DNA from: Glutamicibacter sp. PS | GTDB lineage: Bacteria > Actinomycetota > Actinomycetes > Actinomycetales > Micrococcaceae | DNA: 64,000 nt | Direction of reading: 5' to 3' | Assembly (NCBI GenBank): GCA_031317595.1 | Contig: JANCMB010000001.1 | Coordinates: forward strand, 2,855,610-2,919,609 | Shown: positions 6,857 through 28,363 of the stretch, piece after piece | How positions within the stretch are numbered: the stretch's first letter is position 1 | Layout: the number at the start of each line of letters is the position of its first letter | Program-made: the position numbers and the translations under genes | Notes under the pieces: generated by a model | What the model was told of the DNA's origin: nothing | The model's database searches: none | What the model saw: only the letters and a program-made list of their open reading frames with translations

Positions 6857-7405
6857 ATGGCCCCGAAACCCAAGGACAAGGAGGAGCAGGTGTACGAGGG
6901 GCTGCCGGCGGAACTCGCCGCGGCGATCCGGCGCGGGTATGCCCAGCGTGATCGCCATCGCATGGAACCTACCATCGACTTCTTCCGGCAACTGCTGGCG
7001 CGGTATCCGGAGCACGCGGTTGTCCGCTATGAACTGGCGGGCGCCTACGATACCGCAGGTCAGGAGGAGCGGGCCTGCGAACTCTACGAGGAAGCACTGG
7101 ATCAGGGACTGAGCGGAGAACCTTTGCGTCGCTGCCTGTGCCAGTATGCGAGCACGTTGCGCTGGCTCGGAGAACTCGAGGCCTCACGCAAGGTGTTGGA
7201 CCGGGCTCACTCCGCATTCCCCGATTCCGAGGGCGTCAAGGTCTTCTCGGCGCTGACCCACCTGGAGTCCAACAAGCCCGACGCGGCCGTGGGTGAACTA
7301 CTCGAGGTCATCACCGCGCACGCTGAAGCCACCGACCTCGGCCGGTGGAATGATGGCCTGGCCAATCTGGGACGTTGGCTACGGGCGGGCCGGCCCGAGG
7401 ACTGA
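6857..7405 (+). CDS. Tetratricopeptide-repeat protein
   Basis: 182 residues from ATG 6857 (AAGG lies immediately upstream; a TTG at 6836 would add seven residues). After a charged start (MAPKPKDKEEQVYEGLPAEL) the chain is helical, with TPR-like repeats: RQLLARYPEHAVVRYELAGA, then DTAGQEERACELYEEALDQG, then ASTLRWLGELEASRKVLDRA and EGVKVFSALTHLESNKPDAA. It is soluble, with no signal or membrane segment. TPR proteins of this size usually act as protein-binding adaptors; the partner is unknown. It lies convergent with the YjiH-type gene and may be read through weakly from the subtilase. Confidence 0.75.
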   Translation: MAPKPKDKEEQVYEGLPAELAAAIRRGYAQRDRHRMEPTIDFFRQLLARYPEHAVVRYELAGAYDTAGQEERACELYEEALDQGLSGEPLRRCLCQYASTLRWLGELEASRKVLDRAHSAFPDSEGVKVFSALTHLESNKPDAAVGELLEVITAHAEATDLGRWNDGLANLGRWLRAGRPED

Positions 7406-7422
7406 ACCCCGGGCCGAGCGAA

Positions 7423-8745: not shown

Positions 8746-9599
8746 GTTGGGCTTCCCTTCGGGCGATATTCCTAGACCAATGGAACCGGAAGATCATCGA
8801 CGAATGTGAGCCCGATCGCGCCAGATGTCCGGAATATCGGATTTCCCAAGCCGGCACCGACTTCCCACAGGCACGGAGCGCAACTCGAAGAACGCCGCAT
8901 GGCTCAAATAACGGCGTTCATGCGAGCGTCAGCGCGGATACGTTTCGTGAACGAGAATTGGGCGCCTATCAACACCGGCACAAGGCACCCCTTCCCGTCA
9001 TATGGGGAGGTGGCTATCTCGCCCACGGCCCCGACACCGTCGATGTTGAGGCTTCTGAAGACCACGTCTCTTGGCCCAGCGCGACATGACATACCGAACC
9101 TCGAAGAGCCAATAGGCGCGCCTAGGGGCGCATTGAACGAAAGAGCCATGGACCAATTGGCAACGTCCGTCCGGCGCGGCCCCAAGACCACAACGGATTA
9201 CTAAACAAATTTGCCAATTAGCCGCGGGCCTTAGTTGGACGATGACGCGCACTAGATTTCCGAGGTGCATTGAATGCAGCTAGCAACCTCGGGGTTCAGT
9301 CAGGGAGGCTTTATCGCAGAAGATGATTCACGTTTACCGCAGTCAAGATACATATGAAAATTTCACACAAGCTGAACTCCAATTAGATCACCGTTCATTT
9401 TCAAAACCCGCGATCCCGTCGGGTCGTGGTCGCAGAAATATGTGAAACACCTTTTTAGTACATGCATCAATATAAAAGATTTATTTGAGAAGTTCTTCCC
9501 TTCGGGATATCGGAGCGGTTAGGCTCCATGTCGGCACACACCAAATCGATTGATCATCGACTTTTGTGCGCCCAAAATCATCCAGCAAGGAGAACATCT
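8746..9599. other. 854-bp gap between two divergent genes; no gene seen
   Basis: The left half is ordinary high-GC sequence without a credible frame. It has one hairpin, GAACGCCG (8890-8897) with CGGCGTTC (8912-8919). From about 9340 to 9490 the sequence becomes AT-rich (for example TATAAAAG near 9472) and probably holds the promoter of the second subtilase. A small inverted repeat, GGAGC/GCTCC, lies near 9512-9528. The size suggests a lost gene or a long control region. Confidence 0.45.
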
Positions 9600-11832: not shown

Positions 11833-12906
11833 TTAGCCCACGGCGCCACTTGCATATTGCGTGCGTGGCCTGCGCTCAAACACGGCGGCCGCTGCGATTC
11901 CGAGAATCACGCCCAGCAGGTTACCGATGGCGCAGTCCCACATCACCTGGTCACCGAGCATCGGGTTAGCCAGCTGCAACATCAGAATGATTACTGGCGT
12001 AAAGAAGCTCAAGGCCAAGCCGTAATTGCGAACCATATAGGCCTCAGTCGGGAAAATCAGCGCGAGGATCACGAATCCCAACATCAGCTCGCTTGGCTGC
12101 AGGTAGTAGATTCCCAGAAGCACACCCATGCCGACCAGCGTTCCTGCGATCCGGTGCGCACCGCGCTTCAGCCGTCCCCGAGCACTGCCTGCGGCCAACG
12201 GCACTACCGCCCCGACCATGATCCACTGCAGATGCTCCACCTGCAGGGTGATGCCCACGGTCCCCGCCACAAGGACCACGGCCAGATACGTGCCTGCACG
12301 GCGCAGGACGTTAGGCCAAGGAAAGGCTATCGTTTCGACTCCGCGTTCTGTCGACGGTCCAAACTTGGCCGCCTGACCCAGCAAAATGCTGACTAACGCG
12401 GTAACCACGAACGTTGCCAACCCGTCTACGGCTGGATGTTCTCCGACCGGGAGTGTTCCCAAGGCACAAAAGGCGAAAAGCGGAAAGAAGGCGCCGCCGG
12501 GCTTGAGACCGTGTCGATCCGCGACCACCGAGCTGAAGGCAGCCCAGAGCATTCCTCCAGCCAAGAGAGACCACCCATGCAACCCAAAGGGTGCCAGCAT
12601 GATGCCGCAAATACCAGCGCAGAGCATCATGATGGCGCCATGCACCTGATTCTTGAAGCGCTGTAGCCGACGTGGGTCACGCCCATACATTCCGACAACC
12701 GAGCCGAAAACTGCATAAACAAGAAGATCTGTGCGGCCAACAACTAAAAGCGCCGCCCCTGGAACGGCCAGTCCGAGACCAACGCGCAGGGCAGGTCGGA
12801 TTTCCGGGATGTGGGCGATCAGAAACAATTGCCAGTTTGCCAAGGCCGCCAGCCTCGATCTGATCGACGAGCGTTCACGCGTAGTGCGCAACTGATCACC
12901 AGCCAT
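11833..12906 (-). CDS. FUSC-family (aromatic acid exporter-like) inner membrane protein
   Basis: 357 residues with several hydrophobic segments and the FUSC pattern: a first membrane half starting RPALRVGLGLAVPGAALLVV, a positively charged stretch (GRDPRRLQRFKNQVHG), then a second half (LQWIMVGAVVPLAAGSARGR, TLVGMGVLLGIYYLQPS). FUSC proteins such as AaeB and MdtO export aromatic acids or similar toxic compounds, usually with partners not seen here. The start codon ATG 12906 overlaps the TGA of a small upstream frame (TGATG), suggesting coupling. A LysR-type box lies upstream and the LysR gene at 13110 is the obvious regulator. Confidence 0.8.
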   Translation of the reverse strand: MAGDQLRTTRERSSIRSRLAALANWQLFLIAHIPEIRPALRVGLGLAVPGAALLVVGRTDLLVYAVFGSVVGMYGRDPRRLQRFKNQVHGAIMMLCAGICGIMLAPFGLHGWSLLAGGMLWAAFSSVVADRHGLKPGGAFFPLFAFCALGTLPVGEHPAVDGLATFVVTALVSILLGQAAKFGPSTERGVETIAFPWPNVLRRAGTYLAVVLVAGTVGITLQVEHLQWIMVGAVVPLAAGSARGRLKRGAHRIAGTLVGMGVLLGIYYLQPSELMLGFVILALIFPTEAYMVRNYGLALSFFTPVIILMLQLANPMLGDQVMWDCAIGNLLGVILGIAAAAVFERRPRTQYASGAVG

Positions 12907-15271: not shown

Positions 15272-16312
15272 TTAGTAAAGCGTGCCCATTGCCTGGCGCA
15301 CCTCAGCTAGCGTCTGTTCGGCTTCGTCATTGGCACGTTGCGCCCCACGCCGAAGGATCTGCGACACCAACTCCGGTTGCGCAGCGAACTCTGCCCGCCG
15401 CGCGCGGTGTTCCCGTAGGAAATCGTTCACGGCATCCGTGACCAGCCGTTTGAGCGCGCCGCTTCCGGAAGCGCCCACCTCTTCGGCTATCTGCAATTCC
15501 TCGCGTCCCAGACAGAGTGCGGCGGTGCTCAGTAGAGCCGAAACACCCGGTCGTCGTTCCGGATCGAAGCTCACGTGCCGTTGAGAATCGGTGCGCACTG
15601 CTCGGATGAGGTCGGCCGTCTCATCGGCGCTCATCCCTAGAGCAATCGCGTTTCCGTAGCTCTTGGACATCTTGCGCCCATCGAGTCCGGGCACGTGTGG
15701 CGCGGCGGTCAGTAGCGCGTCCGGTTCCGGGAAGAGTGCACCGTAGCGGTCGTTAAACCTGCGGGCAATGGTACGGGTCATTTCAACGTGCGGGAGGTTG
15801 TCCTTACCCACGGGCACCACATTGGCCTTGCAGAAAAGAATGTCTGCGGCCTGGTGCACGGGATAGGTCAAGAGCAGTCCCGACATGGCTCGACCCGAAG
15901 ATTCGCGTTCGGCCTTCACGGTGGGATTGCGGTGTAGTTCGGCTTCTGAAATGAGTGAGAGGAAGGGAAGCATCAGTTGGTTCAGCGCTGGAACCGCTGA
16001 GTGCGTGAAGATTGTCGTTGTCTCCGGATCCAGACCCGCCGCCAAATAATCCAAGACCGCGCTGTGCACATTCCGGCGCACAGCGCCCATGGAATCTCGG
16101 TCGGTAATCACCTGGTAGTCGGCGAGGATGATGAAGGTTTCCACCCCCGCTTGTTGTAGCCGCAGGCGTTCGACGATGCTACCAAAGTAGTGGCCCAGAT
16201 GGAGGGCGCCGGTGGGGCGTTCGCCACTCAGCACCCGGTATTCCTGTGGCGCCTGAGTGATGTGACGAGACAGTTGGTCGGAACGTTCTTGAGCGGACAG
16301 GAAAGTTTGCAT
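15272..16312 (-). CDS. trpS: Tryptophan--tRNA ligase
   Basis: 346 residues from ATG 16312 (CGGAG five bases upstream); a longer start at 16339 would add nine residues. It charges tRNA-Trp with tryptophan. Class I motifs are intact: GALHLGHYFGS (HIGH-type, 35-45) and GRKMSKS (212-218). Length matches bacterial TrpRS. The gene stands behind a full Trp attenuator (leader peptide 16420-16455, terminator 16365-16399), so expression should rise when charged tRNA-Trp falls. Trp attenuation of trpS is known in some actinobacteria, where a regulated second TrpRS can exist. Whether this is the only trpS cannot be told from the window. Confidence 0.95.
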   Translation of the reverse strand: MQTFLSAQERSDQLSRHITQAPQEYRVLSGERPTGALHLGHYFGSIVERLRLQQAGVETFIILADYQVITDRDSMGAVRRNVHSAVLDYLAAGLDPETTTIFTHSAVPALNQLMLPFLSLISEAELHRNPTVKAERESSGRAMSGLLLTYPVHQAADILFCKANVVPVGKDNLPHVEMTRTIARRFNDRYGALFPEPDALLTAAPHVPGLDGRKMSKSYGNAIALGMSADETADLIRAVRTDSQRHVSFDPERRPGVSALLSTAALCLGREELQIAEEVGASGSGALKRLVTDAVNDFLREHRARRAEFAAQPELVSQILRRGAQRANDEAEQTLAEVRQAMGTLY

Positions 16313-16364
16313 GATTTCTCCGTGCGATAGGGCGCCCACGGGCCCGCACGGTCGTCATGCGACC

Positions 16365-16455: not shown

Positions 16456-16652
16456 GGTTCTACCTTATCGCGTGTTTCGCGTTGCAGGTCGCGTTCTATG
16501 GTCTCCTCGCGCCGCTCCGCCCGAGATGTGTAGGTGAGCACGCGATACAACACGACAACAAGGGCGATGACCGTCAGTGCGGGCAGCACGAAGATGAATA
16601 CAACTTCGTACGCATTAGGCGTCATGATATTCACCGGATCAACTCTTCTCAT
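16452..16652 (-). CDS. Small single-pass membrane protein
   Basis: 66 residues from ATG 16652 (a later ATG at 16625 gives 57). One hydrophobic helix (VVFIFVLPALTVIALVVVLY) is followed by a charged tail (SRAERREETIERDLQRETRD). I do not recognise the family. Its stop overlaps the start of the Trp leader peptide, so it is the first gene of the trpL-trpS transcript unless another promoter lies inside it. The layout raises the question whether it shares a role with TrpRS or only supplies the promoter. Confidence 0.6.
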   Translation of the reverse strand: MRRVDPVNIMTPNAYEVVFIFVLPALTVIALVVVLYRVLTYTSRAERREETIERDLQRETRDKVEP

Positions 16653-16738
16653 CGAATCTTCACGTAACGGTAGGCGGCTAACACCCGCATGTTGTGCTGG
16701 AATTTTCTCTATTAGGCTAACATTTTCGGGTCGGACGG

Positions 16739-16762
16739 GCCCTCCTCCTAAAGGAGGAGGGC
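16739..16762 (-). terminator. Hairpin between ddl and the small membrane-protein gene
   Basis: GCCCTCCTCCT (16739-16749) pairs with AGGAGGAGGGC (16752-16762) with almost no loop beyond TAAA, 15 nt after the ddl stop. It probably ends the vanY-alr-ddl transcript; no T-run is present. Confidence 0.5.
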
Positions 16763-16776
16763 GAAGCTTTCCTGCC

Positions 16777-17733
16777 CTAGGGTCGCAATGCCGCGCGGAC
16801 CATGGATTGCACCAGATCTGCGTACTCGATGCCCGCCGCAGCGAACATCTGTGGCACTTGGGAGTGTGCAGTCATGCCGGGCATCGTATTCACTTCGATG
16901 AGCACCGGGCCCCGCGTGGTGAGAAAGAAGTCCATCCGTGCCACGCCCGCGCAGCCTAACTTGCGATACAGGGCCTTTGCCGCGTCGCTGAGCGACTGGG
17001 CCTCTGCAGGTGTCAGCGCCGCCGGCACGCTGAACGAGGCGGTCCCGTCGTATTTGGTCGCGGTATCGAACAGCCCTTGCGCATGGATTTCAAGGGCCGG
17101 AGGCGTAAATAGTTCACCGTCGGGTTCTTGTAGGACCGCGACGTCAATTTCTCGCCCGCGCACCACGCGTTCGATGATGATGCGCTCGTCGAACTGCGCA
17201 GCGGTTGCTAAGGCATTGCGTAGTTCTTCAGGGGTGGAAGCAAGCGACACACCATAGCTGGATCCGCCCGAGGCAGGCTTGACGATCACCTCTCCCTCGA
17301 AACGCACCCGATCGCGCTCGGCGGTGGAGACCAGCTCTCCGTGGGCGGTGGCGATCCCCAAACTTTGCGCCACGAGCTTGGTAGTCCACTTATCCATACC
17401 GAGTGCTCCGGCGCGCAGACCCGAGCCCACCACCGGAATGCCGGTCAGTGCACAGAGCGCTGCCAGTGTCCCGTCTTCACCCAGTGGCCCATGTACCGCC
17501 GGAAAGACCACCTCAGCCTGATCGAAGAAGCGCAGGGCGGAGGCTACCGAGGCGGCAACGGTGTCGCCGAGCGGCTCCCCATCTTTGCTCCAGCGTCCAT
17601 CGAGGTCGATCGTCAACGCGATCACGGTATATCCCCGGGAGCTCAATGCCTTTCCGATGGATGCGGCGGTGGCCAGCGATACATTGTGCTCGGCGTTTTG
17701 GCCGCCACCGATAACGAGAATGTGGGTAGTCAT
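16777..17733 (-). CDS. ddl: D-alanine--D-alanine ligase family protein
   Basis: 318 residues from ATG 17733 (AGGAG ten bases upstream). It joins two D-Ala with ATP. Visible ATP-grasp features are GGGQNAEHNVSLATA (N-terminal substrate loop, with QNAEHN instead of the common SxEREV or SxEHEV), KPASGGSSYGVSLA (ATP loop) and EVNTMPGMT (Mg site). The omega-loop region FDTATKY keeps the Lys-Tyr pair seen in D-Ala-D-Ala and D-Ala-D-Ser ligases and lacks the D-Ala-D-Lac loop, so D-lactate use is not expected. Third gene of vanY-alr-ddl, overlapping alr by ATGA. A housekeeping ddl is probably elsewhere. Confidence 0.88.
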   Translation of the reverse strand: MTTHILVIGGGQNAEHNVSLATAASIGKALSSRGYTVIALTIDLDGRWSKDGEPLGDTVAASVASALRFFDQAEVVFPAVHGPLGEDGTLAALCALTGIPVVGSGLRAGALGMDKWTTKLVAQSLGIATAHGELVSTAERDRVRFEGEVIVKPASGGSSYGVSLASTPEELRNALATAAQFDERIIIERVVRGREIDVAVLQEPDGELFTPPALEIHAQGLFDTATKYDGTASFSVPAALTPAEAQSLSDAAKALYRKLGCAGVARMDFFLTTRGPVLIEVNTMPGMTAHSQVPQMFAAAGIEYADLVQSMVRAALRP

Positions 17734-18833
17734 TGAACGCTCCTGATAACACGTGATCCGATAGTGCAAATTATGGTGTGGGAGATGCTCTGCGCCCAGT
17801 TGGCCCAGTCGGCCAGAGTGGGTGCCCCGCTGGCCGCTGCACCGAAGATGGTGGCCCTGGTGCCGCGCGCATAGCGGTGGGGCCCGGTGTCGATAATGAT
17901 TTGGTCCATGCTGACCCGGCCCACCACCCTGTGCCGACGGCCGGCGATCTGCACGCTGGCATCGGTAGAGATCTCGCGTGGGATGCCGTCGGCGTAGCCC
18001 AACGGTAAGACACTCAGGTACCCGTCATGGGTGCTGCGGTACATGCCGCCGTAGCCCACACTGGTACCTTCCGAAGCCCAGACGCTATGCACCACCGGTG
18101 CGGTCAGCCGGGCAACAGCGGCAAGATCAGTGCGCCCAGAGGGGTCGATCCCGGCCAGTCCGGCGCCGAATCTCACCATATCGAAATGGGTACTTGGGTC
18201 GGTGAGGGTGGCCGCGGTGGCCGCTAGATGCAGCTTAAGCCGCCCCAGCCCTAAGACGCTGGCCCGCGCTTTCGCGGCAGACATGGCCCGTACGGCTTGA
18301 TCATTAAGTTCCGGTTCGGCACGATCTGCCTGCGCCAAATGTCCCATTAGCCCACCGACCCGGATCTTGTTTTGGCGCTGGGCCCGGGCGGCCGACTCGA
18401 AGAGCGCCTGCCAATCCAAGGGCGAGGCTCCCTCCCGGCACATACCCACATCGAGGTGCAGATGCACGGTGACCGGTGCGGCCGAGTGTTGCCGCAGGAG
18501 CGCATTGAGCTCTTCGAGCGAACCGATTGCCACCGCGATTTGGTGCTCCGCGGCCGCCGTAGCGTCAACGCCGGAGGCATTGAGCCATGTCAGTATTGGC
18601 GCACGCACACCGGCCTCGCGCAGTGCCACAGCTTCGACCAAATCCGTGGTCCCAAGCTGTGTGGCACCACCATCAAGTGCGGCGCGAGCCAAAGTGAGTG
18701 TGCCCAAACCGTAGCCGTTGGCCTTGACTACCGCCATCACTTCGGCGGCGCTCCGGCTGCGGGCGATGGCAATATTCTGCGCAATCGCCCGAGGGTCAAT
18801 CCAGAGGGTGGGTCGATGCAGGTCCCCGTTCAC
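17730..18833 (-). CDS. alr: Alanine racemase
   Basis: 367 residues, PLP fold type III. Lys37 in VVKANGYGLG is the PLP-binding lysine and Tyr261 in SVGYGGMYRS the second catalytic base; the phosphate-binding and C-terminal beta domain (LPLGYADGIPR, GRVSMDQIIIDTG) are all present. It makes D-Ala for the ligase that follows. Its start overlaps the vanY stop and its stop overlaps the ddl start, so the three genes are translationally coupled. A racemase dedicated to D-Ala or D-Ser is a usual partner in Van-type sets; the substrate preference cannot be read from sequence. Confidence 0.92.
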   Translation of the reverse strand: MNGDLHRPTLWIDPRAIAQNIAIARSRSAAEVMAVVKANGYGLGTLTLARAALDGGATQLGTTDLVEAVALREAGVRAPILTWLNASGVDATAAAEHQIAVAIGSLEELNALLRQHSAAPVTVHLHLDVGMCREGASPLDWQALFESAARAQRQNKIRVGGLMGHLAQADRAEPELNDQAVRAMSAAKARASVLGLGRLKLHLAATAATLTDPSTHFDMVRFGAGLAGIDPSGRTDLAAVARLTAPVVHSVWASEGTSVGYGGMYRSTHDGYLSVLPLGYADGIPREISTDASVQIAGRRHRVVGRVSMDQIIIDTGPHRYARGTRATIFGAAASGAPTLADWANWAQSISHTIICTIGSRVIRSVQ

Positions 18834-19489
18834 GACTGCATCCGCGGGTCTTCGGTGGGGTCCTTATACATTTCCGGGCAGCCGGTTTCGCTGGCCTCGG
18901 AGCGGTATTCAAAATGCCACGACTCGTTGGCGTAAATCTGGCAGAGACCATAGTGTGCCCCATACCGGGAGAGCCAGTCGCGGGCGTCGGCTTGCCCCAC
19001 GTCGACCGCGTCGCCGGAAACGTGGGCGGAAGTTTCGGCGGTGGCGACCCAGCGGGCCGCCTCTGCCGCGGAACCATGATTGGCTTCGGCCTGCTGTAGC
19101 AATTGACGTTGCAGAGCCGGCGAGCGCCAGCCGCTATTGATGTAGATGGTGATCCCGCGCTTTTGCGCATCACTCGCGGCCGCACTCAATGCTTGGCGCA
19201 GTTCCGAGTCGAGCTTGCGAACCCCGGCGGTATCCGAGTGCACCGTGGTGCCTTTGGGAATATCTCCCCCGTCCTCGCCCACTCCACCAGAGAACGGTTT
19301 CGTGACGGCCTTGGTCACGTGGCTAAAGGAGTCGGAGAGCCAGGCGGCGGGGCGCAAGTTGCCGGTGTCGAGGACCATGGCCGGGAGCATGGCAGCGAGC
19401 ATCACGAGCAGAGCCACCACTCCGCGTGCTGCCAGTGCCGTCAGGCGCTTCTCGCCCGGTGTGTGCTTGGAGTTCTCATCGTTGCTCAT
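18830..19489 (-). CDS. vanY: VanY-type D-alanyl-D-alanine carboxypeptidase (M15B)
   Basis: 219 residues from ATG 19489 (GTG 19495 is an alternative; neither has a strong ribosome site). A short cytosolic start is followed by one membrane anchor (GVVALLVMLAAMLPAMVL) and an outside domain. Zinc and catalytic motifs of peptidase M15 are complete: SAHVSGDAVDVG (SxHxxGxAxD) and the WHFEY near the C-terminus. VanY removes the terminal D-Ala from peptidoglycan stem peptides. First gene of the vanY-alr-ddl operon; the sequence 40-93 bp upstream is almost the same as the promoter of the two-component system at 26590. Confidence 0.9.
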   Translation of the reverse strand: MSNDENSKHTPGEKRLTALAARGVVALLVMLAAMLPAMVLDTGNLRPAAWLSDSFSHVTKAVTKPFSGGVGEDGGDIPKGTTVHSDTAGVRKLDSELRQALSAAASDAQKRGITIYINSGWRSPALQRQLLQQAEANHGSAAEAARWVATAETSAHVSGDAVDVGQADARDWLSRYGAHYGLCQIYANESWHFEYRSEASETGCPEMYKDPTEDPRMQS

Positions 19490-19528
19490 GAGCACTAGTC
19501 AACGCGGAGGGATGTTGCCAGAGCGTAT

Positions 19529-19582
19529 CTACTTCTCAATACATTTTCGATATGTGCACGCATGTAGCCTCATATGATGCGC
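19529..19582. promoter_or_regulatory. Repeat A: operator/promoter sequence beside vanY
   Basis: The core 19536-19567 matches 26549-26580 at 27 of 32 positions (shared blocks TCAATACATT, CGATATGTGC, CGC, GTAG). The match continues more weakly to 40 of 54 over 19529-19582 and keeps the spacing to an ATGCGC. The imperfect dyad ATACAT-n5-ATATGT suggests a response-regulator site. On the plus strand it also has a -10-like TAGCCT and an ATG (19577) placed exactly as in the two-component promoter, but no gene follows. Confidence 0.7.
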
Positions 19583-19630
19583 ACGCCCGTGGCGGCAGTT
19601 CTACACCGCCGTGTATACCCATTAACAATG

Positions 19631-19668
19631 CCGAGTGGCCCAGACCGTTCCCGGTCTGGGCCACTCGG
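19631..19668. terminator. Long perfect hairpin, terminator of the amine operon
   Basis: A 17-bp perfect stem (19631-19647 with 19652-19668) closes on TTCC. It lies 22 nt past the stop of the SDR gene on the minus strand. Confidence 0.8.
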
Positions 19669-19689
19669 CAGGTTCGCCGGCGCTACCGC

Positions 19690-20490
19690 TTAGAGCGGGG
19701 TCACGTAGGCACCGGCGATACCGCCGTCGACCAGGAACTGGCTGGCGGTGATGAAGGAGGAATCATCCGAGGCGAGGAAGGCCACGGCGGCGGCCAGCTC
19801 ATCTGGTTCCGCGAATCGTCCCAGCGGAACATGGACCAGGCGCCGGGCGGCTCGTTCGGGGTCCTTGGCGAACAGCTCCTTGAGCAACGGAGTGTTCACC
19901 GGGCCTGGGCATAGTGCGTTCACGCGGATGCCCTGCCGGGCGAATTCCACACCCAGCTCTCGGCTCATGGACAGAACGCCACCTTTGGAGGCCGAGTAGC
20001 TGATCTGGCTGGTGGCCGCGCCCATCACCGCGACGAAGGACGCGGTATTGATGATCGAGCCGCGGCCCTGTTCTTGCATATAGGGCAGTACATACTTGCA
20101 GCAGTAGTACACGCTGGTCAGGTTGACCTCTTGCACCTTGCGCCAGGCCTCGATCCCGGTTTCCAAGATGGAGGCGTCGTCCGCCGGAGAGATTCCCGCG
20201 TTATTGAAGGCGATATCCACCGAGCCATAGGTCTCTTTCGTGGTTGCGAACAGGTTCTTTACATCCTCTTCGTTGGTGACGTCGGTGCGGATGAAGGCGC
20301 CACCAATTTGCTCGGCGACCTGTTGGCCGGCCTCGTCCGCGCAGATATCGGCGATCACCACGGTGGCGCCCTCATGGGCCAGGCGTTTGGCGGTGGCTAG
20401 GCCAATACCCGAGGCGCCGCCGGTGATGGTCGCTACACGGCCGGCCAGTCGATTGGTGACCAGTCCGTTGTAGGGTGCGGTTTCGCTCAT
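19690..20490 (-). CDS. Short-chain dehydrogenase/reductase (SDR)
   Basis: 266 residues, classical SDR: TGGASGIGLAT (NAD(P)-binding), NNAG in the fourth strand, a conserved Ser in the NTAS region, the YSASK active site, and a C-terminal FLVDGG. The acidic residue at the end of beta-2 (VVIADICADE) favours NAD(H). Last gene of the permease-ligase-hydrolase-aldehyde dehydrogenase-SDR operon. In the gamma-glutamyl-ethanolamide route an alcohol must be oxidised to an aldehyde, and this enzyme is the only candidate in the operon. Assignment to that step is inference. Confidence 0.85.
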   Translation of the reverse strand: MSETAPYNGLVTNRLAGRVATITGGASGIGLATAKRLAHEGATVVIADICADEAGQQVAEQIGGAFIRTDVTNEEDVKNLFATTKETYGSVDIAFNNAGISPADDASILETGIEAWRKVQEVNLTSVYYCCKYVLPYMQEQGRGSIINTASFVAVMGAATSQISYSASKGGVLSMSRELGVEFARQGIRVNALCPGPVNTPLLKELFAKDPERAARRLVHVPLGRFAEPDELAAAVAFLASDDSSFITASQFLVDGGIAGAYVTPL

Positions 20491-20526
20491 GAGATTTCTC
20501 CTTAGGTTTTGGGTTGTGCTGCGTGC

Positions 20527-21903
20527 TTAGTCGTCGGTACCGATGAAAACGTTCTTGACCTCGGTGAAGGAATCCAATGCGTCGGGGCCGAGTTCGCGCC
20601 CGAGTCCAGATTTTTTGAAGCCACCAAAGGGCGTGGAGTACCGCACTGAGGAGTGCGAGTTCACCGAGAGGTTCCCGGCCTCCACGCCGCGCGAGACGCG
20701 CAGGGCCCGGCCCACGTCACGAGTCCAGATCGAGCCGGACAGTCCATAGTCGGTGTCATTGGCCAGCGCGACGGCCTCGGCTTCGTCCTCGAAAGGCACC
20801 ACGGCGACAACGGGGCCGAAAACTTCTTCGCGCAGGATGCGGTCCGCTCGATCGCGCGGCAGCACCACGGTGGGCGGGAACCAGAAGCCCTCGCCGCCCG
20901 GTGCCTCACCCTGAAAGGCGATGTCGGCGCGCTGCCCCTGCTCACCTTCGAGGAAGGACGCCACGGTTTCACGTTGCCTTGCCGAAATCAGCGGGCCCAT
21001 AACCGTGTCCTCATGCAGCGGATCCCCCACCCGAACCTGGCGAACAGACTCTTCGAACTTCTCCATGAACGTCTCGAAAACGCTGCGCTGAACCAGAATC
21101 CGCGAACGCGCGCAACAGTCCTGTCCGGCGTTGTCGAAGACTCCGCCCGGCGCCTGGGCCGCGGCCCGTTCCAGATCCGCATCGGCGAAAATGATGTTCG
21201 CGGATTTGCCGCCAAGTTCCAGGGTGACGCGTTTGAGTTGCTCGGCACAGCCACGCATGATGCCCTGGCCAACCTGGGTGGAGCCGGTAAAGACCACTTT
21301 GCGCACCGCCGGATGAGTCACGAAACGCGCTCCGACGGTCGAACCCTTACCCGGCAGGATCGTCAGCACGCCCTCGGGGATGCCGGCTTCCAGCGCGAGC
21401 TCTCCGAGACGCAGCGCAGTCAGCGGGGTCAGCTCGGCCGGTTTGAGCACTACCGTGTTGCCCGCAGCGAGCGCTGGGGCGAATCCCCAGGCGGCAATCG
21501 GCATCGGGAAGTTCCACGGAACGATTACCCCGACGACCCCTAAAGGTTCGTGGAAGGTGATATTCACGCCGCCGGCCACCGGAATCTGTTTGCCGAAGTT
21601 CCGTTCTGGCGCGGCGGCATAGTAGTTCAGCACGTCCCGCACGTTGCCGGCCTCCCAGCGCGCGTTACCCAGGGTGTGCCCGGCGTTGGCGACTTCGAGC
21701 AGGGCCAACTCTTCAATCTCGTGGTCCACGATGGCAGCAAAACGGCGCAAGAGCAAGGCCCGGTCCGCCGGGGCCGTATGGCGCCAGGATTCGTAGGCGG
21801 CCGCGGCACGGGCGATGGCTCGGTCCGTCTGCTCTAGGTCGGCCAGGGCGACGTCGCGGATCGGCTGTGCGGTTGCGGGGTTGATGACGGTATAGCTGCT
21901 CAC
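20527..21903 (-). CDS. NAD(P)-dependent aldehyde dehydrogenase
   Basis: 458 residues, full ALDH fold. Catalytic Cys263 lies in DNAGQDCCARSR and the general base Glu229 in LELGGKS; the oxyanion Asn is in VPWNFP and the C-terminal EVFGPVVAV motif is present. Length is slightly short for the family but no motif is lost. Its start overlaps the stop of the gamma-glutamyl hydrolase gene by ATGA. In context it should oxidise a gamma-glutamylated aldehyde, by analogy with PuuC in putrescine breakdown or the aldehyde step in ethanolamine breakdown. Confidence 0.9.
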   Translation of the reverse strand: MSSYTVINPATAQPIRDVALADLEQTDRAIARAAAAYESWRHTAPADRALLLRRFAAIVDHEIEELALLEVANAGHTLGNARWEAGNVRDVLNYYAAAPERNFGKQIPVAGGVNITFHEPLGVVGVIVPWNFPMPIAAWGFAPALAAGNTVVLKPAELTPLTALRLGELALEAGIPEGVLTILPGKGSTVGARFVTHPAVRKVVFTGSTQVGQGIMRGCAEQLKRVTLELGGKSANIIFADADLERAAAQAPGGVFDNAGQDCCARSRILVQRSVFETFMEKFEESVRQVRVGDPLHEDTVMGPLISARQRETVASFLEGEQGQRADIAFQGEAPGGEGFWFPPTVVLPRDRADRILREEVFGPVVAVVPFEDEAEAVALANDTDYGLSGSIWTRDVGRALRVSRGVEAGNLSVNSHSSVRYSTPFGGFKKSGLGRELGPDALDSFTEVKNVFIGTDD

Positions 21904-22667
21904 AGTTGACCCTGCCTTTCTCGGTGTTGTGTGGTGCGTGCATAGCTGCGGGCGGCCTCGACGAACCCGGCAAAAAGCCGCAGGTCCTCGAGATTCTCCT
22001 CGGGATGAAACTGGGTGCCCAGCACCCAGCCGGGGGCCTGTGGCATCTCAATCACTTCGGCGGTGCCATCGGCCGCGCGCGCCGTGACCTGCAGACCCTC
22101 GGCCACGTTCTCCAAGCTCTGATGGTGGTAGCAGGGTGCCGTGGCCTGCTTCCCGAGCAGGGTTTCGGCCAGCGAGCCACGCACCGTGGTGAAGTCCACG
22201 CTGCCAAACACCCCCGGGGCCGGCTGGTAGCGTGCCGCGGCATCCGGAATCAGGTCCGGCAGATGCTGGTTCAAGGTGCCGCCACGTTCCACATTCAGGA
22301 TCTGCGCGCCACGGCATATCGCGAACAACGGCAGTGCCCTCTCCAATGCGGTAGCGGTCAGCGCCATATCGTGGGCGTCGCGTTCGGGCTGCGCGGCCGT
22401 GGTGGGGTGCGCTTCGCGCTGGTAGTTCGCCGGGTCAACATCGACGCCGCCAATCACGATCAGCCCATCGAGCAGATCGAGCACCGTGGTGTCGGTACCC
22501 ACTGGTGGCAGCAACAACGGGGTGCCGCCCACGGCCACGACTGCTTGGACATATTTGCCCGGCACAATTGCTGCCTGTGACTGCCAGACGCCCCAGGAGG
22601 CCTCCTGCCAGTAGGTCGTCAACCCGATGCGCGGACGATACTCGTCGCTAAGGGGGTTTAATTTCAC
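21900..22667 (-). CDS. Gamma-glutamyl-gamma-aminobutyrate hydrolase-family (PuuD-like) protein
   Basis: 255 residues, class I glutamine-amidotransferase fold of peptidase family C26. The nucleophile is Cys118 (FAICRGAQILN) and the His-Glu pair is in GTQFHPEEN; GGVDVDP is the family's early motif. It cleaves the gamma-glutamyl amide and releases glutamate plus the oxidised amine product. Second last step of a gamma-glutamylation pathway, coded just after the ligase. The exact acyl partner (GABA-like or glycine-like) is unknown. Confidence 0.9.
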   Translation of the reverse strand: MKLNPLSDEYRPRIGLTTYWQEASWGVWQSQAAIVPGKYVQAVVAVGGTPLLLPPVGTDTTVLDLLDGLIVIGGVDVDPANYQREAHPTTAAQPERDAHDMALTATALERALPLFAICRGAQILNVERGGTLNQHLPDLIPDAAARYQPAPGVFGSVDFTTVRGSLAETLLGKQATAPCYHHQSLENVAEGLQVTARAADGTAEVIEMPQAPGWVLGTQFHPEENLEDLRLFAGFVEAARSYARTTQHRERQGQL

Positions 22668-22700
22668 CGTCGTCTCGATCCCTTCGATCGTTCTCGCTTG

Positions 22701-24098
22701 CTAGTGCCGCTCGAATCCGCGGCGCACTTCCCAGTCCGTGACCGCGGCGTTGAACTGTTCCAGTTCAATGTCGGCGTAGTGGGTGTAGTGCTTCACGACC
22801 TCTTCGCCAAATACCTCAAGGGCGATCTTTGAGTTGGCGAAGAGCTCTCTTGCCTCGGCCATGGTGTGCGGCACATGCTCTGCATCCGAGGCGTAGGCAT
22901 TGCCCTCGATCATCTCCGGCAGCTCTAGTTCGTGCTTCATTCCGTACAGCCCACCGGCGAGCATGGCGGCCATTGCCAGATAGGGGTTAGCGTCGGCTCC
23001 GGGCAGACGGTTCTCCATGCGCGCCCCATGCCCTTCGCCGACCAGCCGTACCGAGCAGGTTCGGTTATCCAAGCCCCAAGCCACCGCGGTGGGTGCGAAG
23101 GAGCCCTTGGCGAAGCGCTTATAGGAGTTGATATTCGGGGCGTAGAAGAGCGTGAACTCGCGCATCGTGGCCAGCACGCCGGCAATGAAATGGTTGTAAA
23201 GCTTGGTGCGCTTCCCCGTGGCAGGGTCCCAAAACGCCAAGGAGCCATCCAATCCGCGGAGCGACATGTGAATATGGCAGCTCGAACCTTCGCGCTCGTT
23301 AGGCTTGGCCATGAAGGTGATCGACTGCCCGCGCTGGGCGGCCATATGTTTTGCCGAGAGCTTGTAGAACGTGTGGTTGTCCGCCGTGGTGATCACATCG
23401 TCATAGCGGAAGGCGATCTCGTGCTGGCCGAAGTTGCATTCGCCCTTGGCCGATTCGACGATCATCCCCGCCTCGTACATGGCGTTGCGGATATCGCGGA
23501 GTAGCGGTTCCACGCGCATCGATCCGAGGATCGAGTAGTCAACGTTGTATTGGTTGGCCGGGGTCAGATCTTTGAAGTTGCGTAGCGTGGCGTCCTCGTA
23601 GGAGTCCGTATACATCACGAATTCCAGTTCGGTGCCGGCTAATGCCACCAGTCCCAGCTCATTGGCCTTATCTTGCTGGGCCCGTAGCAAGGAACGCGGC
23701 GAAACCGGCACCGGGCGGCCATCGGTGGTGGCGATGTCGGCTTGGATGATCGCAGTCTTCTCCAGGTAGGGCACCCGGCGGATGGTCTGATAGTCCAGAA
23801 CAAACTCCATATCGCCGTATCCGGTTTCCCAGCTGGTCAGCTTGTATCCATCGACGGTGTTCATGTCCGTGTCCACCGCGAGCAGGTAATTACAGGCCTC
23901 AGTGCCGTGGCTGAGCACGGTATCGAGGAAGAATTGACCGTGAATGATCTTTCCCTGGAGGCGTCCCTGCATATCGGTGAAGGCGAGAACGACCGAATCG
24001 ATCACCCCGGCTTCGATGTCTTTGCTCAGTTGCTCGACCGATAGCATCCGGGAGTTCTTCACGGTGCTCTGCTTGTTCTGTGTGTCCTGAGTGGTCAT
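22701..24098 (-). CDS. Glutamine-synthetase-like gamma-glutamyl-amine ligase (GlnA3/GlnA4/PuuA type)
   Basis: 465 residues. GS motifs are present: an ATP/Glu region GTELEFVMY, KGECNFGQHEI, SSCHIHMSL, the NSYKRF-to-APTAVAW stretch with NRTCSVR, and ENRLPGADANPYLA. Unlike housekeeping GS it ends in WEVRRGFERH and lacks the adenylylation-loop tyrosine signature that I would expect. Such proteins join glutamate to polyamines or ethanolamine. The neighbour is an ethanolamine-type permease, so gamma-glutamylethanolamide synthesis, as described for GlnA4 of Streptomyces coelicolor, is the best fit; polyamines are the alternative. Confidence 0.88.
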   Translation of the reverse strand: MTTQDTQNKQSTVKNSRMLSVEQLSKDIEAGVIDSVVLAFTDMQGRLQGKIIHGQFFLDTVLSHGTEACNYLLAVDTDMNTVDGYKLTSWETGYGDMEFVLDYQTIRRVPYLEKTAIIQADIATTDGRPVPVSPRSLLRAQQDKANELGLVALAGTELEFVMYTDSYEDATLRNFKDLTPANQYNVDYSILGSMRVEPLLRDIRNAMYEAGMIVESAKGECNFGQHEIAFRYDDVITTADNHTFYKLSAKHMAAQRGQSITFMAKPNEREGSSCHIHMSLRGLDGSLAFWDPATGKRTKLYNHFIAGVLATMREFTLFYAPNINSYKRFAKGSFAPTAVAWGLDNRTCSVRLVGEGHGARMENRLPGADANPYLAMAAMLAGGLYGMKHELELPEMIEGNAYASDAEHVPHTMAEARELFANSKIALEVFGEEVVKHYTHYADIELEQFNAAVTDWEVRRGFERH

Positions 24099-24152
24099 GT
24101 GAAGTCCTGTTCCTAAGTCTCGTGGGTATCCGCTGGTGAAGTGTGTTGCCGC

Positions 24153-25589
24153 CTAGTTCAGTTGCTCCTCCTCGTGCCCTAGGAGAGCGAACTCCTCCTC
24201 CGGAGCGTTGGCGACGAGGTGGTGTCGGCTATAGAACCAGAAGTAGGCCAGCGCGGCGAGGAATACGAGGGCGGTAATACCTGCGGCGAGGACGTCGACC
24301 ACGAAGGTGGCGATCAAAGCAACCACGGCCAATACCAGCGCGATCCCCGTGGTGATCGTGCCGCCCGGTGTCAGGTATCCGCGTTCTAGGTTTGGTTCCT
24401 TGATCCGCAGCACGATGTGGCTGAGGTTCAAAAGTACGTAGGAGACCGTGGCTCCGAATACGGCGATATTGATTAGCAGGCCACCGTTGCCGGTGAATGC
24501 CGCGAGCAGGAAGCCAATGGTGCCGGGAACTAAGAGGGCGACCCATGGCGTGTGGCGGCCCGAGGTCAGCGAAAGCACCCGCGGCAGATAGCCGGCGCGC
24601 GATAGCGCAAAGAGCTGGCGTGAGTAGGCGAAGACGATGGAGAAGAAGCTGGCGATCAGCCCAGCAAGGCCGGCGTAGTTCACGAAGTTCGCAAGCATCG
24701 ATCCCTCACCGAGCCCGGCCCGCAAAGCTTCGGGAAGCGGCGACTCGGAATCGCTCATCGCTTGGGCGCCAGCGACGCCTGGAACTAGGACGAGCATCAA
24801 GGCGCCAAACACCAGCAGGATCATCATGGCGGTGATAATGCCCTTGGGCATGTCACGCTTCGGATCGCTCGATTCCTCCGCAGCCAACGGCACGCCCTCC
24901 ACCGCCAGGAAGAACCAGATACCAAAGACCAGGGCCCCTAGGGCACCGGAGATGCCGAAGGGCAAAAAGGCGCTGGATCCGGCCGAGCCGTCGGGCACGA
25001 TATCGAAGAGGTTTGCCGCATCGAAATGCGGGAGCAAGCCGATGACGGTCACAATCAACGCGAGGACGGCAATGGCGGTAATGCCAAACATCACCTTGAG
25101 CGCCTCGCCAACACCCCACAGGTGAATACCGACAAAGACGACGTACGTCACCAGATAAACCGGCCAGGAATTTGTCATTCCGAAGAGCCCGAGCGCCTCG
25201 ATGTAGCCACCGATGAATGTGGCGATGGCGGCCGGTGCCACGGCGTACTCGATCAGCACCGCCATGCCGGTGGCGAACCCACCCAGTGGCCCGAGTGCCC
25301 GTCGGGCGAAGCCATAGCCGGCACCCGACGTGGGCAGGGTGGAGGAAAGCTCGGCCAGACCGAAGACCATGCAGGTGTACATGACACCCATCAGCAGAAA
25401 GGCGATCAGTAGCCCGCCCCATCCGCCGACCCCTAGCCCTAGGTTCCATCCGGAGAAATCGCCGGAGATCACGTAGGCAACTCCGAGCCCGGCGAGCAGA
25501 ATCCAGCCGGCGACGCCCCGGCGTAGTTGGCGGTGCTTCAAGTAGTCTTTGTCGACTGCGGCGTAGTCGATATGTGAGTTCTTTGCCAT
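24153..25589 (-). CDS. APC-family permease, ethanolamine-permease type
   Basis: 478 residues with about 12 membrane helices. The start (VAYVISGDFSGWNLGLGVGG, followed by WGGLLIA) is the signature stretch I associate with ethanolamine permeases (Eat/EutH-unrelated APC group). PTSGAGYGFARRALGP and AAEESSDPKRDMPKG are APC family motifs. AGAGGAAC precedes the ATG. First gene of the amine operon, divergent from the FadR-type regulator at 25765, with a palindrome between. It would import the amine that the downstream ligase uses. Confidence 0.85.
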   Translation of the reverse strand: MAKNSHIDYAAVDKDYLKHRQLRRGVAGWILLAGLGVAYVISGDFSGWNLGLGVGGWGGLLIAFLLMGVMYTCMVFGLAELSSTLPTSGAGYGFARRALGPLGGFATGMAVLIEYAVAPAAIATFIGGYIEALGLFGMTNSWPVYLVTYVVFVGIHLWGVGEALKVMFGITAIAVLALIVTVIGLLPHFDAANLFDIVPDGSAGSSAFLPFGISGALGALVFGIWFFLAVEGVPLAAEESSDPKRDMPKGIITAMMILLVFGALMLVLVPGVAGAQAMSDSESPLPEALRAGLGEGSMLANFVNYAGLAGLIASFFSIVFAYSRQLFALSRAGYLPRVLSLTSGRHTPWVALLVPGTIGFLLAAFTGNGGLLINIAVFGATVSYVLLNLSHIVLRIKEPNLERGYLTPGGTITTGIALVLAVVALIATFVVDVLAAGITALVFLAALAYFWFYSRHHLVANAPEEEFALLGHEEEQLN

Positions 25590-25624
25590 GGATGTTCCTC
25601 TGTCCTACAGAGATCGAATCTATT

Positions 25625-25640
25625 GGACTGAAATCAGTCC
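25625..25640. promoter_or_regulatory. Palindromic operator between permease and FadR-type regulator
   Basis: GGACTGAAATCAGTCC has 7-bp arms (GGACTGA/TCAGTCC) with two central bases. It lies 36 bp before the permease start in the divergent gap and is the likely site of the neighbouring GntR/FadR regulator. Confidence 0.5.
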
Positions 25641-25764
25641 TTTGTTCCGGAATAACTGTGTCCTGCATCACTAGCTAGTGTCAATAGTTCTAGAGAAAAC
25701 TCTTGCTCAAAAGTCTGAGAGCTGACCATTACATATCGGTTTTAGCTGTGGCAAGCTAGAGACT

Positions 25765-26490
25765 ATGACGGAGAACGAGCCAGTTGAGCCCAATAGAGGC
25801 CTGCAGTTTCTGGGACAAGTCCGTAAGGGCAACGTCTTTGAGGAGACCGTGGGGCAGCTACTGCGCTCGATGCGCTTGGGCGTCTTCCCACCCGGGGAAA
25901 AACTCCCTGCGGAACGAGACCTCGCCGAATCGCTGGGAGTTTCTCGTGCCACCTTGCGCGATGCCTTGGCCGAGTTGCAATCAGCCGGTTTCTTGAGCAT
26001 CCAACGAGGCCGGTACGGCGGTGCTGTCGTGAGCGCAAGCCCCAAAACCGGAGCCGAGCCATTACGCCAAACCGATCGTCCGCGCGTTGAAGACGTGCTG
26101 GTCTACCGCTCCGTAGTGGAGCCTGCCGCTGCGGGCCTCGCGGCGGCAGCCCCGCTGAGCGCCGAACAACGTCAACGACTCATGGCGGCACTCGCCTCCT
26201 TGGACTCCGCCGAGAAAGAGACCTACCGGCCACTGGACGCGCGCCTGCACATTATGATTGCCGACCTCTCGGGTTCGGCACTGCTCGCCAAGGCTGTGGC
26301 CGAGGCTCGCGACGCCACGAGCGAGCTGCTGAATCGCATCCCGTTCTTAGAGCCGAATATCGAGCATTCCAGAGAACAACATTCGCGCATCGTTGCAGCC
26401 ATCATGGCCGGTCAGCCCGATGAAGCCAGAGCACTTATGCACGAGCATCTGGAAGGAACCGCTGCGCTGCTTCGTGGGTTCCTTGACTAA
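25765..26490 (+). CDS. FadR-type GntR regulator of the amine operon
   Basis: 241 residues. Winged helix at 20-85 (GVFPPGEKLPAERDLAESLG, VSRATLRDALAELQSAGFLS) and a C-terminal all-helical FCD domain with metal-ligand-like residues (RLHIMIADLSG, HSREQHSRIVAAI). Encoded divergently from the permease operon, so it most likely represses it until the amine or a gamma-glutamyl product is bound. Its 3' end is followed within 52 bp by Repeat B and the two-component genes. Confidence 0.85.
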   Translation: MTENEPVEPNRGLQFLGQVRKGNVFEETVGQLLRSMRLGVFPPGEKLPAERDLAESLGVSRATLRDALAELQSAGFLSIQRGRYGGAVVSASPKTGAEPLRQTDRPRVEDVLVYRSVVEPAAAGLAAAAPLSAEQRQRLMAALASLDSAEKETYRPLDARLHIMIADLSGSALLAKAVAEARDATSELLNRIPFLEPNIEHSREQHSRIVAAIMAGQPDEARALMHEHLEGTAALLRGFLD

Positions 26491-26541
26491 AGAAAACTAC
26501 CGTCAAACGATGTCCGAGCACGCCATGGTCCCGTGCGCAGG

Positions 26542-26595
26542 CTAGTTTTCAATACATTCACGATATGTGCGCGCTCGTAGGATGGGAGCATGCGC
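26542..26595 (+). promoter_or_regulatory. Repeat B: promoter/operator of the VanRS-like genes
   Basis: Direct-repeat partner of 19529-19582 (see core 26549-26580). TAGGAT (26578-26583) is a good -10 box, six bases before the ATG at 26590, so the mRNA would be leaderless and the repeat would cover the -35 region. That is a position typical for an activator such as an OmpR-type regulator. Confidence 0.65.
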
Positions 26596-27279
26596 GTACT
26601 GATCGTCGAGGACGAACCTCTAATGGCCGAAGGAATCCGTGACGGACTGCGGTTGGAAGCCATCGCCGCCGATATTGCCGGTGATGGCCACAGTGCCCTA
26701 GAGCTACTAGCGGCGAACTCCTACGACATCGCAATCCTCGACCGTGACATCCCCGGCCCCACAGGCGACGATGTTGCCCGGCAGATCGTGGCATCCGGCA
26801 CCGGGCTGCCGATTCTGATGCTCACCGCGGCAGACCGCATCGATGAAAAGGCCAGTGGGTTCGAGCTTGGGGCCGATGACTACCTGACCAAGCCCTTCGA
26901 CTTACAGGAGCTGGTGATGCGGCTACGGGCGTTAAATCGACGTCGCGCCCATCATCGACCTCCGGTACGTGAATTGGCCGGCGTGAAATTAGACCCCTTC
27001 CGCCGCGAGGTATACCGCAACGGGCGCTACATCGCCCTGACACGGAAACAATTCGCGGTACTTGAGGTGCTACTCGCCGCCGAAGGAGGTGTGGTCAGCG
27101 CCGAAGAGTTGCTCGAACGAGCCTGGGACGAAAACGCGGACCCCTTTACGAATGCGGTACGCATCACCGTCTCGGCACTCCGTAAACGACTGGGTGAACC
27201 ATGGGTCATTGGCACCGTTCCCGGAGCAGGCTATCGGATCGTAGATCGGCCAGATGAGGAGACTAGCGATGATGCGTAG
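26590..27279 (+). CDS. OmpR-family response regulator, VanR-like
   Basis: 229 residues. Receiver domain with acidic pocket (VEDE), phospho-acceptor Asp51 (ILDRDIPG), Thr (MLTAADR) and Lys (LTKPFD), followed by a winged-helix OmpR domain (LTRKQFAVLEVLLAAEGGVV, TNAVRITVSALRKRLG). This is the subgroup that contains VanR. The gene overlaps the kinase gene by 11 bp. The same DNA sequence stands before it and before vanY-alr-ddl, which points to control of D-Ala metabolism and to autoregulation. Confidence 0.9.
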   Translation: MRVLIVEDEPLMAEGIRDGLRLEAIAADIAGDGHSALELLAANSYDIAILDRDIPGPTGDDVARQIVASGTGLPILMLTAADRIDEKASGFELGADDYLTKPFDLQELVMRLRALNRRRAHHRPPVRELAGVKLDPFRREVYRNGRYIALTRKQFAVLEVLLAAEGGVVSAEELLERAWDENADPFTNAVRITVSALRKRLGEPWVIGTVPGAGYRIVDRPDEETSDDA

Positions 27280-28363
27280 ATCCCGCGGGCTGAGTATCTC
27301 GCTGAAATTCACGCTCGGCTACTTCCTCTTCCTCGCCTTCGGCGGCGCCCTGCTACTCGTCGTAATCTGGCTGTTCCTGCTGCGCTATGTACCCGACGGA
27401 AATCTCGGCCTGATCAGTGGACACATCCCGAACCGGTCGGATTTGTGGCGGGCCTTTAGCCCGCATGCCGCCCGGGCGTTGATCTTCCTACTTCTGATTG
27501 CTCTGATCGGCGGGTGGTTGATCGCGCGCACCATGCTCGCGCCGCTGAAACGGATCACGGCGGTAACCGATGCGGTGGCCAAGGGCGACCTCTCGCGGCG
27601 CATCAACCTGCCGGGGCGAAGCAATGAACTGAGCAAACTGGCCGATGCCTTCGACGGAATGCTCGATCAACTACAGGCTCATGTCGATGAACAGCGACGC
27701 TTCGCGGCCAATGCGTCCCACGAACTGCGCACCCCCTTGGCGATCACCCAAACCTTGCTTTCCGTGGCCCAACAACAATCGGAACCACCCAGCCGGGAAT
27801 TGCTTGAGAAACTCGGCGTGCTCAACACTCGGGCCATCGACCTCACCGAATCACTGCTCCTGTTGGCCCGTGCCGACGCCCGGGCCTTCGAACGCGAAGA
27901 ACTTGACCTCTCGCTCTTGGCCGAAGAGGCCACCGAGACAATGTTGCCGCTGATCGAGGAACGCAACATCTCTCTCGACTTCGACTCACAACCGGCGCCG
28001 ACCTACGGCAATTTTGCTCTGTTGCTCCAGCTGGTCAGTACCTTGCTGCACAATGCGATCGTGCACAATGGCGGCCCCGACCCGCACATTTGGATACGCA
28101 CCAGCATCAACGGAGACTCGGTAACCCTCTGCGTGGAAAACACCGGCGCGCCGGTTCCCGCCGGAACATTGCGGACCCTGCTCGAACCGTTCCAACGCGG
28201 GGCGGCACGTCGGCACGATACCGAGCGGGCCGGGGTCGGTCTTGGTCTAGCGATCGCGCAAAGTATCACGCGGGCACACGCCGGTAAGCTCGAACTGACT
28301 GCGCGTGACACCGGTGGACTCCGCGCCACGGTCACCCTACCGAGGGGCGCGCGGACGGCCTAA
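27269..28363 (+). CDS. Sensor histidine kinase, VanS-like
   Basis: 364 residues from ATG 27269 (GAGGAG upstream). Two membrane helices (about 14-39 and 69-87) flank a very short external loop of about 30 residues. A HAMP domain follows, then the H-box with His151 (FAANASHELRTPLA), an N-box (LLHNAIVHNGG) and a G-box (GVGLGLAIAQSI). The small loop implies sensing inside or next to the membrane, as for VanS-type kinases. Partner of the regulator at 26590. The ligand (glycopeptide, lipid II or other wall stress) is unknown. Confidence 0.9.
   Translation: MMRRSRGLSISLKFTLGYFLFLAFGGALLLVVIWLFLLRYVPDGNLGLISGHIPNRSDLWRAFSPHAARALIFLLLIALIGGWLIARTMLAPLKRITAVTDAVAKGDLSRRINLPGRSNELSKLADAFDGMLDQLQAHVDEQRRFAANASHELRTPLAITQTLLSVAQQQSEPPSRELLEKLGVLNTRAIDLTESLLLLARADARAFEREELDLSLLAEEATETMLPLIEERNISLDFDSQPAPTYGNFALLLQLVSTLLHNAIVHNGGPDPHIWIRTSINGDSVTLCVENTGAPVPAGTLRTLLEPFQRGAARRHDTERAGVGLGLAIAQSITRAHAGKLELTARDTGGLRATVTLPRGARTA

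Follow-up and report, generated by a model that had tools for sequence, protein, structure and literature searches.

Why does a single actinobacterial locus carry much the same promoter-like sequence twice, in the same orientation and about 7 kb apart, with a vanY-like gene next to one copy, a vanRS-like two-component pair next to the other and genes for amine catabolism in between? We addressed this question in a stretch of 64,000 nucleotides (nt) from Glutamicibacter sp. PS (contig JANCMB010000001.1, positions 2,855,610 to 2,919,609), hereafter the window, whose own coordinates are used throughout. The answer that we consider probable is that the amine-catabolism cassette was inserted between vanY and vanRS and that the core of the control region shared by the two was duplicated, each half thereby keeping a VanR-controlled promoter.

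Positions 19536-19567 and 26549-26580 are identical at 27 of 32 positions in direct orientation, at an offset of 7,013 bp, and the match extends to 40 of 54 (74%) between 19529-19582 and 26542-26595, with a longest identical run of 10 bp; both figures had been given in the initial annotation of the window and are reproduced here. Beyond the 54 bp, the match drops to 0 to 4 identities per 10-bp step, except for one step of 6 at 19509. A bare similarity of 27/32 is common enough in 64 kb, where three direct pairs reach it, the repeat pair included. The motif CAATACATTNNCGATATGTGC, allowing up to three mismatches, matches twice in the window and never in 100 shuffles. The looser pattern CRATAYRNNNNCGATATG, with no mismatch, has two matches in the 3.4-Mb genome, both at the repeat sites; the repeat, which might have proved to be scattered over many other loci of this genome, is thus confined to these two. 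We place it above chance because the motif is absent from shuffles, the pair is unique in the genome and the box at its core is kept before vanR elsewhere.

The unsplit arrangement of vanY and vanR is widespread. Our comparison comprised 106 vanR loci, excluding that of the window, drawn from a VanR search of 395 genomes of the family (26 with a match at 1e-60) and a scan of named genomes, of whose 571 relatives the best 80 were kept; in the family searches, each genome could contribute up to seven scored candidates, and closely related loci were counted alike, with no thinning for relatedness. A vanY-like gene lies divergently within 800 bp of the vanR start in 48 of the 106 loci, which come from many families. 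Of L028-L039, the 12 closest loci in the family sample, 10 are arranged in this way. At the other 58 of the 106, no vanY was detected divergently at that place, and some of them have a vanY in the direction of vanR. The complete order looked for in relatives, vanY-alr-ddl directly divergent from the two-component genes, was recovered in genomes G059 and G128 and in one acidimicrobial metagenome-assembled genome (MAG), and the same-genus genome G008 (locus L028) has the unsplit vanY-vanR pair without alr and ddl alongside. The gap from the vanY ATG to the vanR start measures 86 to 88 nt in the 6 of the 48 loci chosen for measurement, being 87 nt in L028, L128 and L093. In the window, the vanY ATG lies 87 nt from an orphan ATGCGC at the end of the left repeat copy, the same as the gap of the unsplit loci. 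In phylogenetic trees, the window VanR pairs with that of G008 (99/90), and the window VanY falls within a four-row clade containing the VanY of the same genome (98/94); with both proteins near G008, the two halves look like one cluster travelling together. The proposal that a divergent vanY/vanRS pair was split by the catabolic block is thereby supported, the pair being unsplit in 48 of 106 loci and the cassette standing alone elsewhere.

Aligned on 85 loci, the core of the repeat reads TTTTCGATAYGCCGRCGATATG, and its column counts point to two half-sites 11 bp apart. OmpR/PhoB-type regulators bind, upstream of the promoter, to direct half-sites that come in pairs spaced by about one helical turn, and the 11-bp spacing of the box across the 85 loci appears to conform to this pattern. 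A box matching at 14 or more of 22 positions lies 20 to 26 nt before vanR in 84 of the 106 other loci, and the distance from the end of the box to the vanR start codon is 21 to 25 nt in 84 of the 85 boxed loci. All 48 divergent loci have such a box, 47 of them with exactly one site of at least 15/22 in the 250 bp before vanR, and it also stands at 36 of the 58 loci lacking a divergent vanY. Boxed loci span Actinomycetota and a few Chloroflexota-type MAGs. On the side facing vanY, the consensus of the divergent loci has conserved CGTATG and GTTGCC elements. The repeat is the core of the vanY-vanR gap and probably a VanR operator serving both directions. A strict, exact version of the box pattern, which misses the copies in the window and most van loci of the family, occurs in 6 of the 395 family genomes, in one at a van locus and in five that have no listed VanR hit. 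These five all belong to one genus of the family (g7; L223-L227) and carry one box-like CCATATGCTGRCGATATG site each.

The two copies are composed as follows.

19490-19582, no strand: copy 1, read as the complete old vanY-vanR divergent intergenic region (the 87-nt gap) plus the first two codons of vanR
19533-19554, plus strand: copy 1 box with its pair of half-sites at 11-bp spacing, putative VanR operator
19565-19570, plus strand: weak or vestigial vanR -10 element TAGCCT, 6 nt before the ATG at 19577 (by sequence reading)
26542-26595, plus strand: copy 2, read as box, vanR promoter and first two codons, without the vanY half; 40/54 to copy 1
26546-26567, plus strand: box in copy 2, putative VanR operator
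26578-26583, plus strand: vanR -10 element TAGGAT, 6 nt before the ATG (by sequence reading)

We scored both against profiles of the left half, the box and the right part of the region built from the 48 divergent loci, with 5,000 shuffles each. Copy 1 scores 31.0 for the vanY (left) half (0/5,000 shuffles as good; median of the loci, 45.8), 12.5 for the box (0/5,000; median, 32.2) and -2.7 for the vanR (right) part (28/5,000; median, 19.3; range, -17.6 to 32.3). The corresponding scores of copy 2 are -36.6 (387/5,000), 21.1 (0/5,000) and 19.2 (0/5,000). By these scores, copy 1 resembles the old region, its vanR side fading, whereas copy 2 resembles no more than the vanR side. The halves that were kept are complementary, the vanY side in copy 1 and the vanR side in copy 2, as would be expected from the division of a bidirectional promoter. 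The initial annotation had envisaged a copy of the vanR promoter left beside vanY; copy 1 does have a vanR-type -10 element and ATGCGC, but it is the complete old region, and the partial copy is the one beside vanR. With the -10-like TAGGAT of copy 2 standing six bases upstream of the ATG, the vanR mRNA is predicted to be leaderless. Further remnants were sought and rejected: for a degraded vanY half preceding copy 2, alignments were no better than those of shuffles (527/1,000 as good against the left half of copy 1, 206/1,000 against the consensus and 78/300 against the mean of 50 left halves), and the same was true of possible traces of vanR on the right side of copy 1 (411/1,000).

Among the 85 boxes, each copy finds its best match in the other (27/32; the next best boxes reach 23 against copy 1 and 26 against copy 2), and both carry AATACAT, seen in none of the 84 other boxes; the box letters of the two are CAATACATT. 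Letters common to both copies and absent elsewhere suggest that one copy derives from the other, and shared descent is a simpler reading of them than coadaptation to this particular VanR. In the putative recognition helix of VanR, the position of which we take from the OmpR/PhoB fold, no residue is rare among 48 relatives. Under duplication-degeneration-complementation, a control region that was once shared exists in two copies, each of which keeps a different half. The copies in the window resemble this in each keeping a different half of the shared region, except that the functions divided here would be transcription one way and transcription the other way from a bidirectional bacterial promoter.

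The genes and remaining elements of the locus are the following.

16777-17769, minus strand: Ddl-type ligase in the left van half (PF07478/PF01820; TIGR01205, 263.5 bits against a cut-off of 245.65)
17730-18833, minus strand: alanine racemase (TIGR00492, 234.5 bits against a cut-off of 168)
18830-19489, minus strand: vanY-like D,D-carboxypeptidase (PF02557, 44.4 bits against a cut-off of 25)
19583-26541, no strand: amine-catabolism cassette with its edges, six genes, read as inserted
19629-19670, minus strand: strong hairpin with a 19-bp stem between the short-chain dehydrogenase (SDR) gene and vanY, which likely terminates the amine operon
19690-20490, minus strand: SDR (PF13561)
20527-21903, minus strand: aldehyde dehydrogenase (PF00171, 541 bits)
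21900-22667, minus strand: gamma-glutamyl hydrolase-like amidase of family C26 (PF07722)
22701-24098, minus strand: GlnA4-like gamma-glutamylamide synthetase of the glutamine synthetase family (PF00120; below all NCBIfam cut-offs and named by its neighborhood, as in PMC6529630)
24153-25589, minus strand: ethanolamine permease (TIGR00908, 499.5 bits against a cut-off of 381.75)
25765-26490, plus strand: GntR/FCD regulator of the cassette (PF00392 and PF07729)
26590-27279, plus strand: VanR-O-like response regulator (NF033118, 428 bits, under the cut-off of 505)
27254-28363, plus strand: VanS-O-like sensor kinase (NF033094, 316.5 bits, under the cut-off of 720)

Between the repeats, as first described, lie only the amine operon and its regulator. 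The set of genes typical for ethanolamine is complete, with permease, glutamine synthetase-like enzyme, amidotransferase, aldehyde dehydrogenase, SDR and regulator, and we predict that the cassette belongs to the GlnA4 type of ethanolamine gene sets, the permease model and the neighborhood pointing to ethanolamine as the substrate. The GntR regulator was found in 84 of the 395 family genomes at 1e-25. From the 14 next-best cassette loci, 12 were fetched, G255 and G375 being omitted as lying near contig ends or on small contigs; 11 of the 12 have the six genes in identical order and orientation, and one (L175) has no permease match. In only 1 of 30 GntR loci, that of the window, does vanR adjoin the regulator, and the possibility that all relatives carry the same block in this place can thus be set aside. 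Eight of the 395 family genomes have both VanR and GntR matches, adjacent on one contig only in that of the window; in the other seven, they lie more than 600 kb apart (G016 and G059) or, in five genomes, on different contigs, although contigs this short do not strictly rule out a shared neighborhood. G059 and G128 have an intact ddl-alr-vanY|vanRS cluster and the cassette at separate places. Because the immediate flanks of the cassette differ in the four same-genus genomes that carry it (two share galactonate-type genes, on opposite sides, as labeled by eye), no single empty site can be named for it. By eye, these surroundings (L164-L167) hold DNA methyltransferase-like or galactonate-type genes, and the cassette seems to roam in a variable region; a hairpin similar in form but different in sequence stands just after the SDR gene of each. 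Another, different meeting of the two systems is seen in Leucobacter zeae (L075, 10001-19796), where a rearranged set of GlnA4-type amine genes, coding for GntR, SDR, aldehyde dehydrogenase, hydrolase, glutamine synthetase-like enzyme and a permease at 40%, lies about 0.9 kb downstream of vanRS.

The cassette is itself nested in a larger accessory stretch, as indicated by an empty site in the same-genus genome G007. There, TrpRS, a small monooxygenase-like gene, two small open reading frames (ORFs) and amidohydrolase and transporter genes are contiguous, uninterrupted by van genes or by the cassette, and about 12 kb of the window (roughly 16457-28360) is absent at that site; G007 holds a more distant VanR and VanY elsewhere. 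In the window, a TrpRS-like gene (15272-16339) adjoins the van genes. The cassette in G005, G011, G015 and G016 and the van pair in G008 all lie about 40 to 82 kb from the homologue of window positions 11833-12906. Cassette and van pair may thus belong to one variable neighborhood, in which case local rearrangement would be eased.

Three other accounts of the repeats have to be weighed. That the match is a chance similarity of promoter pieces could draw on the two other pairs in the window that reach 27/32, yet it is scarcely credible when the motif appears in none of the shuffles and both copies fit the box profile derived from other loci better than any of 5,000 shuffles each. An ancestral split order, from which other lineages lost the cassette, finds no support beyond the window itself and is very improbable in view of the unsplit loci from many families and the cassettes that stand alone. 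More serious, but still unlikely in our judgment, is the separate arrival of ready-made operator-vanY-alr-ddl and operator-vanRS modules on the two flanks of the cassette, the repeats then being operators of one regulon and no pair having been split. The 36 loci with a box before vanR but no divergent vanY, of which, by eye, some lack the vanY half (L035, L073, L075 and L113) and others keep it (L067 and L083), speak for this, as do the clusters with more than one box, including L067 with two full-length copies, and VanY and VanR trees that are not fully alike. Against it, copy 1 keeps a vanR-type -10 element and ATGCGC at the unsplit spacing of 87 nt, which a module serving vanY alone would not need, the box letters common to both copies are absent from the 84 others, and VanY and VanR are both near those of the same-genus G008.

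Several observations also count against a split by insertion. At least two boxes occur in 18 of 91 van loci, and together with the vanHAX copy in L067, these show that two operators can be present in one cluster with no such insertion; in L067 (Streptomyces speibonae), positions 6130-8950 hold two full-length copies of the control region, one belonging to a vanHAX-like operon and the other to vanR, in the same orientation and 2.65 kb apart, with other coding sequence between. With five of the six strict-pattern genomes lacking a listed VanR hit, the tie of the box to VanR across the family is not proven there. The nearest VanY row is L038 (99/79), which is far off in the VanR tree and on a long branch, and 21 and 23 of 46 inner branches of the trees are unsettled. 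The closest relatives compared are same-genus genomes, with no same-species pair having and lacking the block. The copies differ at 14 of 54 positions, so that either the event is old or they are not simple duplicates, and L085 matches copy 2 almost as well (26/32). The common box letters could follow the specificity of VanR itself, which has, at positions 208 and 213 close to its DNA-binding wing, residues that are seldom seen in 48 relatives. Finally, no transposase or integrase Pfam domain was found in the six cassette proteins and no Ku match in the genome, and hence no insertion machinery could be identified.

If the cassette was indeed inserted between vanY and vanRS, phosphorylated VanR would bind both boxes, copy 1 driving vanY-alr-ddl leftwards and copy 2 a leaderless vanRS mRNA rightwards, and the cassette would run on its own GntR regulator. 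Since the cassette reads outward on both sides, the amine operon points at vanY and the GntR gene at vanR. On the vanY side, the minus-strand fold of 19577-19700, which contains the hairpin, has a z of -5.71, and the hairpin, as a strong predicted terminator, would keep cassette transcription off vanY. On the vanR side, the 69 nt separating GntR from copy 2 have a fold no stronger than that of shuffled sequence (z 0.38); with no terminator-like fold after GntR, some read-through into vanRS is possible. The second copy could have arisen as a 54-bp target duplication or by tandem duplication of cassette plus promoter followed by loss, both of which fit. A long target duplication arising through end joining that depends on Ku is disfavored, as the genome has no match in a Ku search whose control found Ku in Bacillus subtilis; other pathways may have served instead. 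Deletion between the copies would on paper restore the divergent layout, as the initial annotation pointed out, but it is expected to be very rare because the copies share 74% identity with no identical run above 10 bp.

VanO-type glycopeptide resistance operons carry vanHAX-type D-Ala-D-Lac genes. The VanR-O and VanS-O models are the best matches of the VanR and VanS of the window, but we call the two proteins only VanO-like because their scores (428 versus 505 and 316.5 versus 720 bits) fall below the curated cut-offs; no vanHAX-type genes stand at the locus, where the ORFs beside vanY code for the racemase and the Ddl-type ligase. This pairing beside VanY (16777-18833) is reminiscent of D-Ala-D-Ser schemes, but the best models of the ligase are D-Ala-D-Ala types, and among solved structures it matches best a D-alanine--D-alanine ligase, 3lwb. 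The locus has the components of a vanRSY triad, a VanR/VanS-like pair and a VanY-like enzyme. Such triads of Actinobacteria, with rare colocalized alanine/aspartate racemase and Ddl-like genes, are already in print (PMC8698665). The window is like them in having a VanRS-type pair beside vanY with racemase/Ddl neighbors and differs in the unrelated catabolic cassette between vanY and vanRS and in the duplicated control box; the words "promoter," "intergenic" and "divergent" are absent from the main text of that paper. The cassette likewise has the gene content, compared without regard to order, of the GlnA4 ethanolamine utilization cluster of Streptomyces (SDR, aldehyde dehydrogenase, glutamine synthetase-like enzyme, regulator, permease and glutamine amidotransferase), as given in PMC6529630, and differs in sitting inside a van cluster. 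No description of an actinobacterial VanR box was found in the open-access literature searched, the consulted parts of PMC9739842 and PMC8329863 included, and none of an insertion-linked duplication of a shared divergent operator in the same body of text.

Returning to the insertion between vanY and vanRS, we tentatively propose, as a step that is possible but distinctly less secure than the insertion itself, that an insertion into a shared divergent promoter survived here because the box was copied. The copies would then have divided the two directions between them, turning a bidirectional operator into two one-way operators, with the permease operon|GntR pair nested in vanY|vanRS and GntR transcripts possibly running on into vanRS. 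The locus would thus offer a concrete case of a cluster with one shared regulatory site that was broken by an insertion and yet kept the control of both halves, and the box, found at 84 of 106 vanR loci, defines a testable site for VanRS-O-like regulators.

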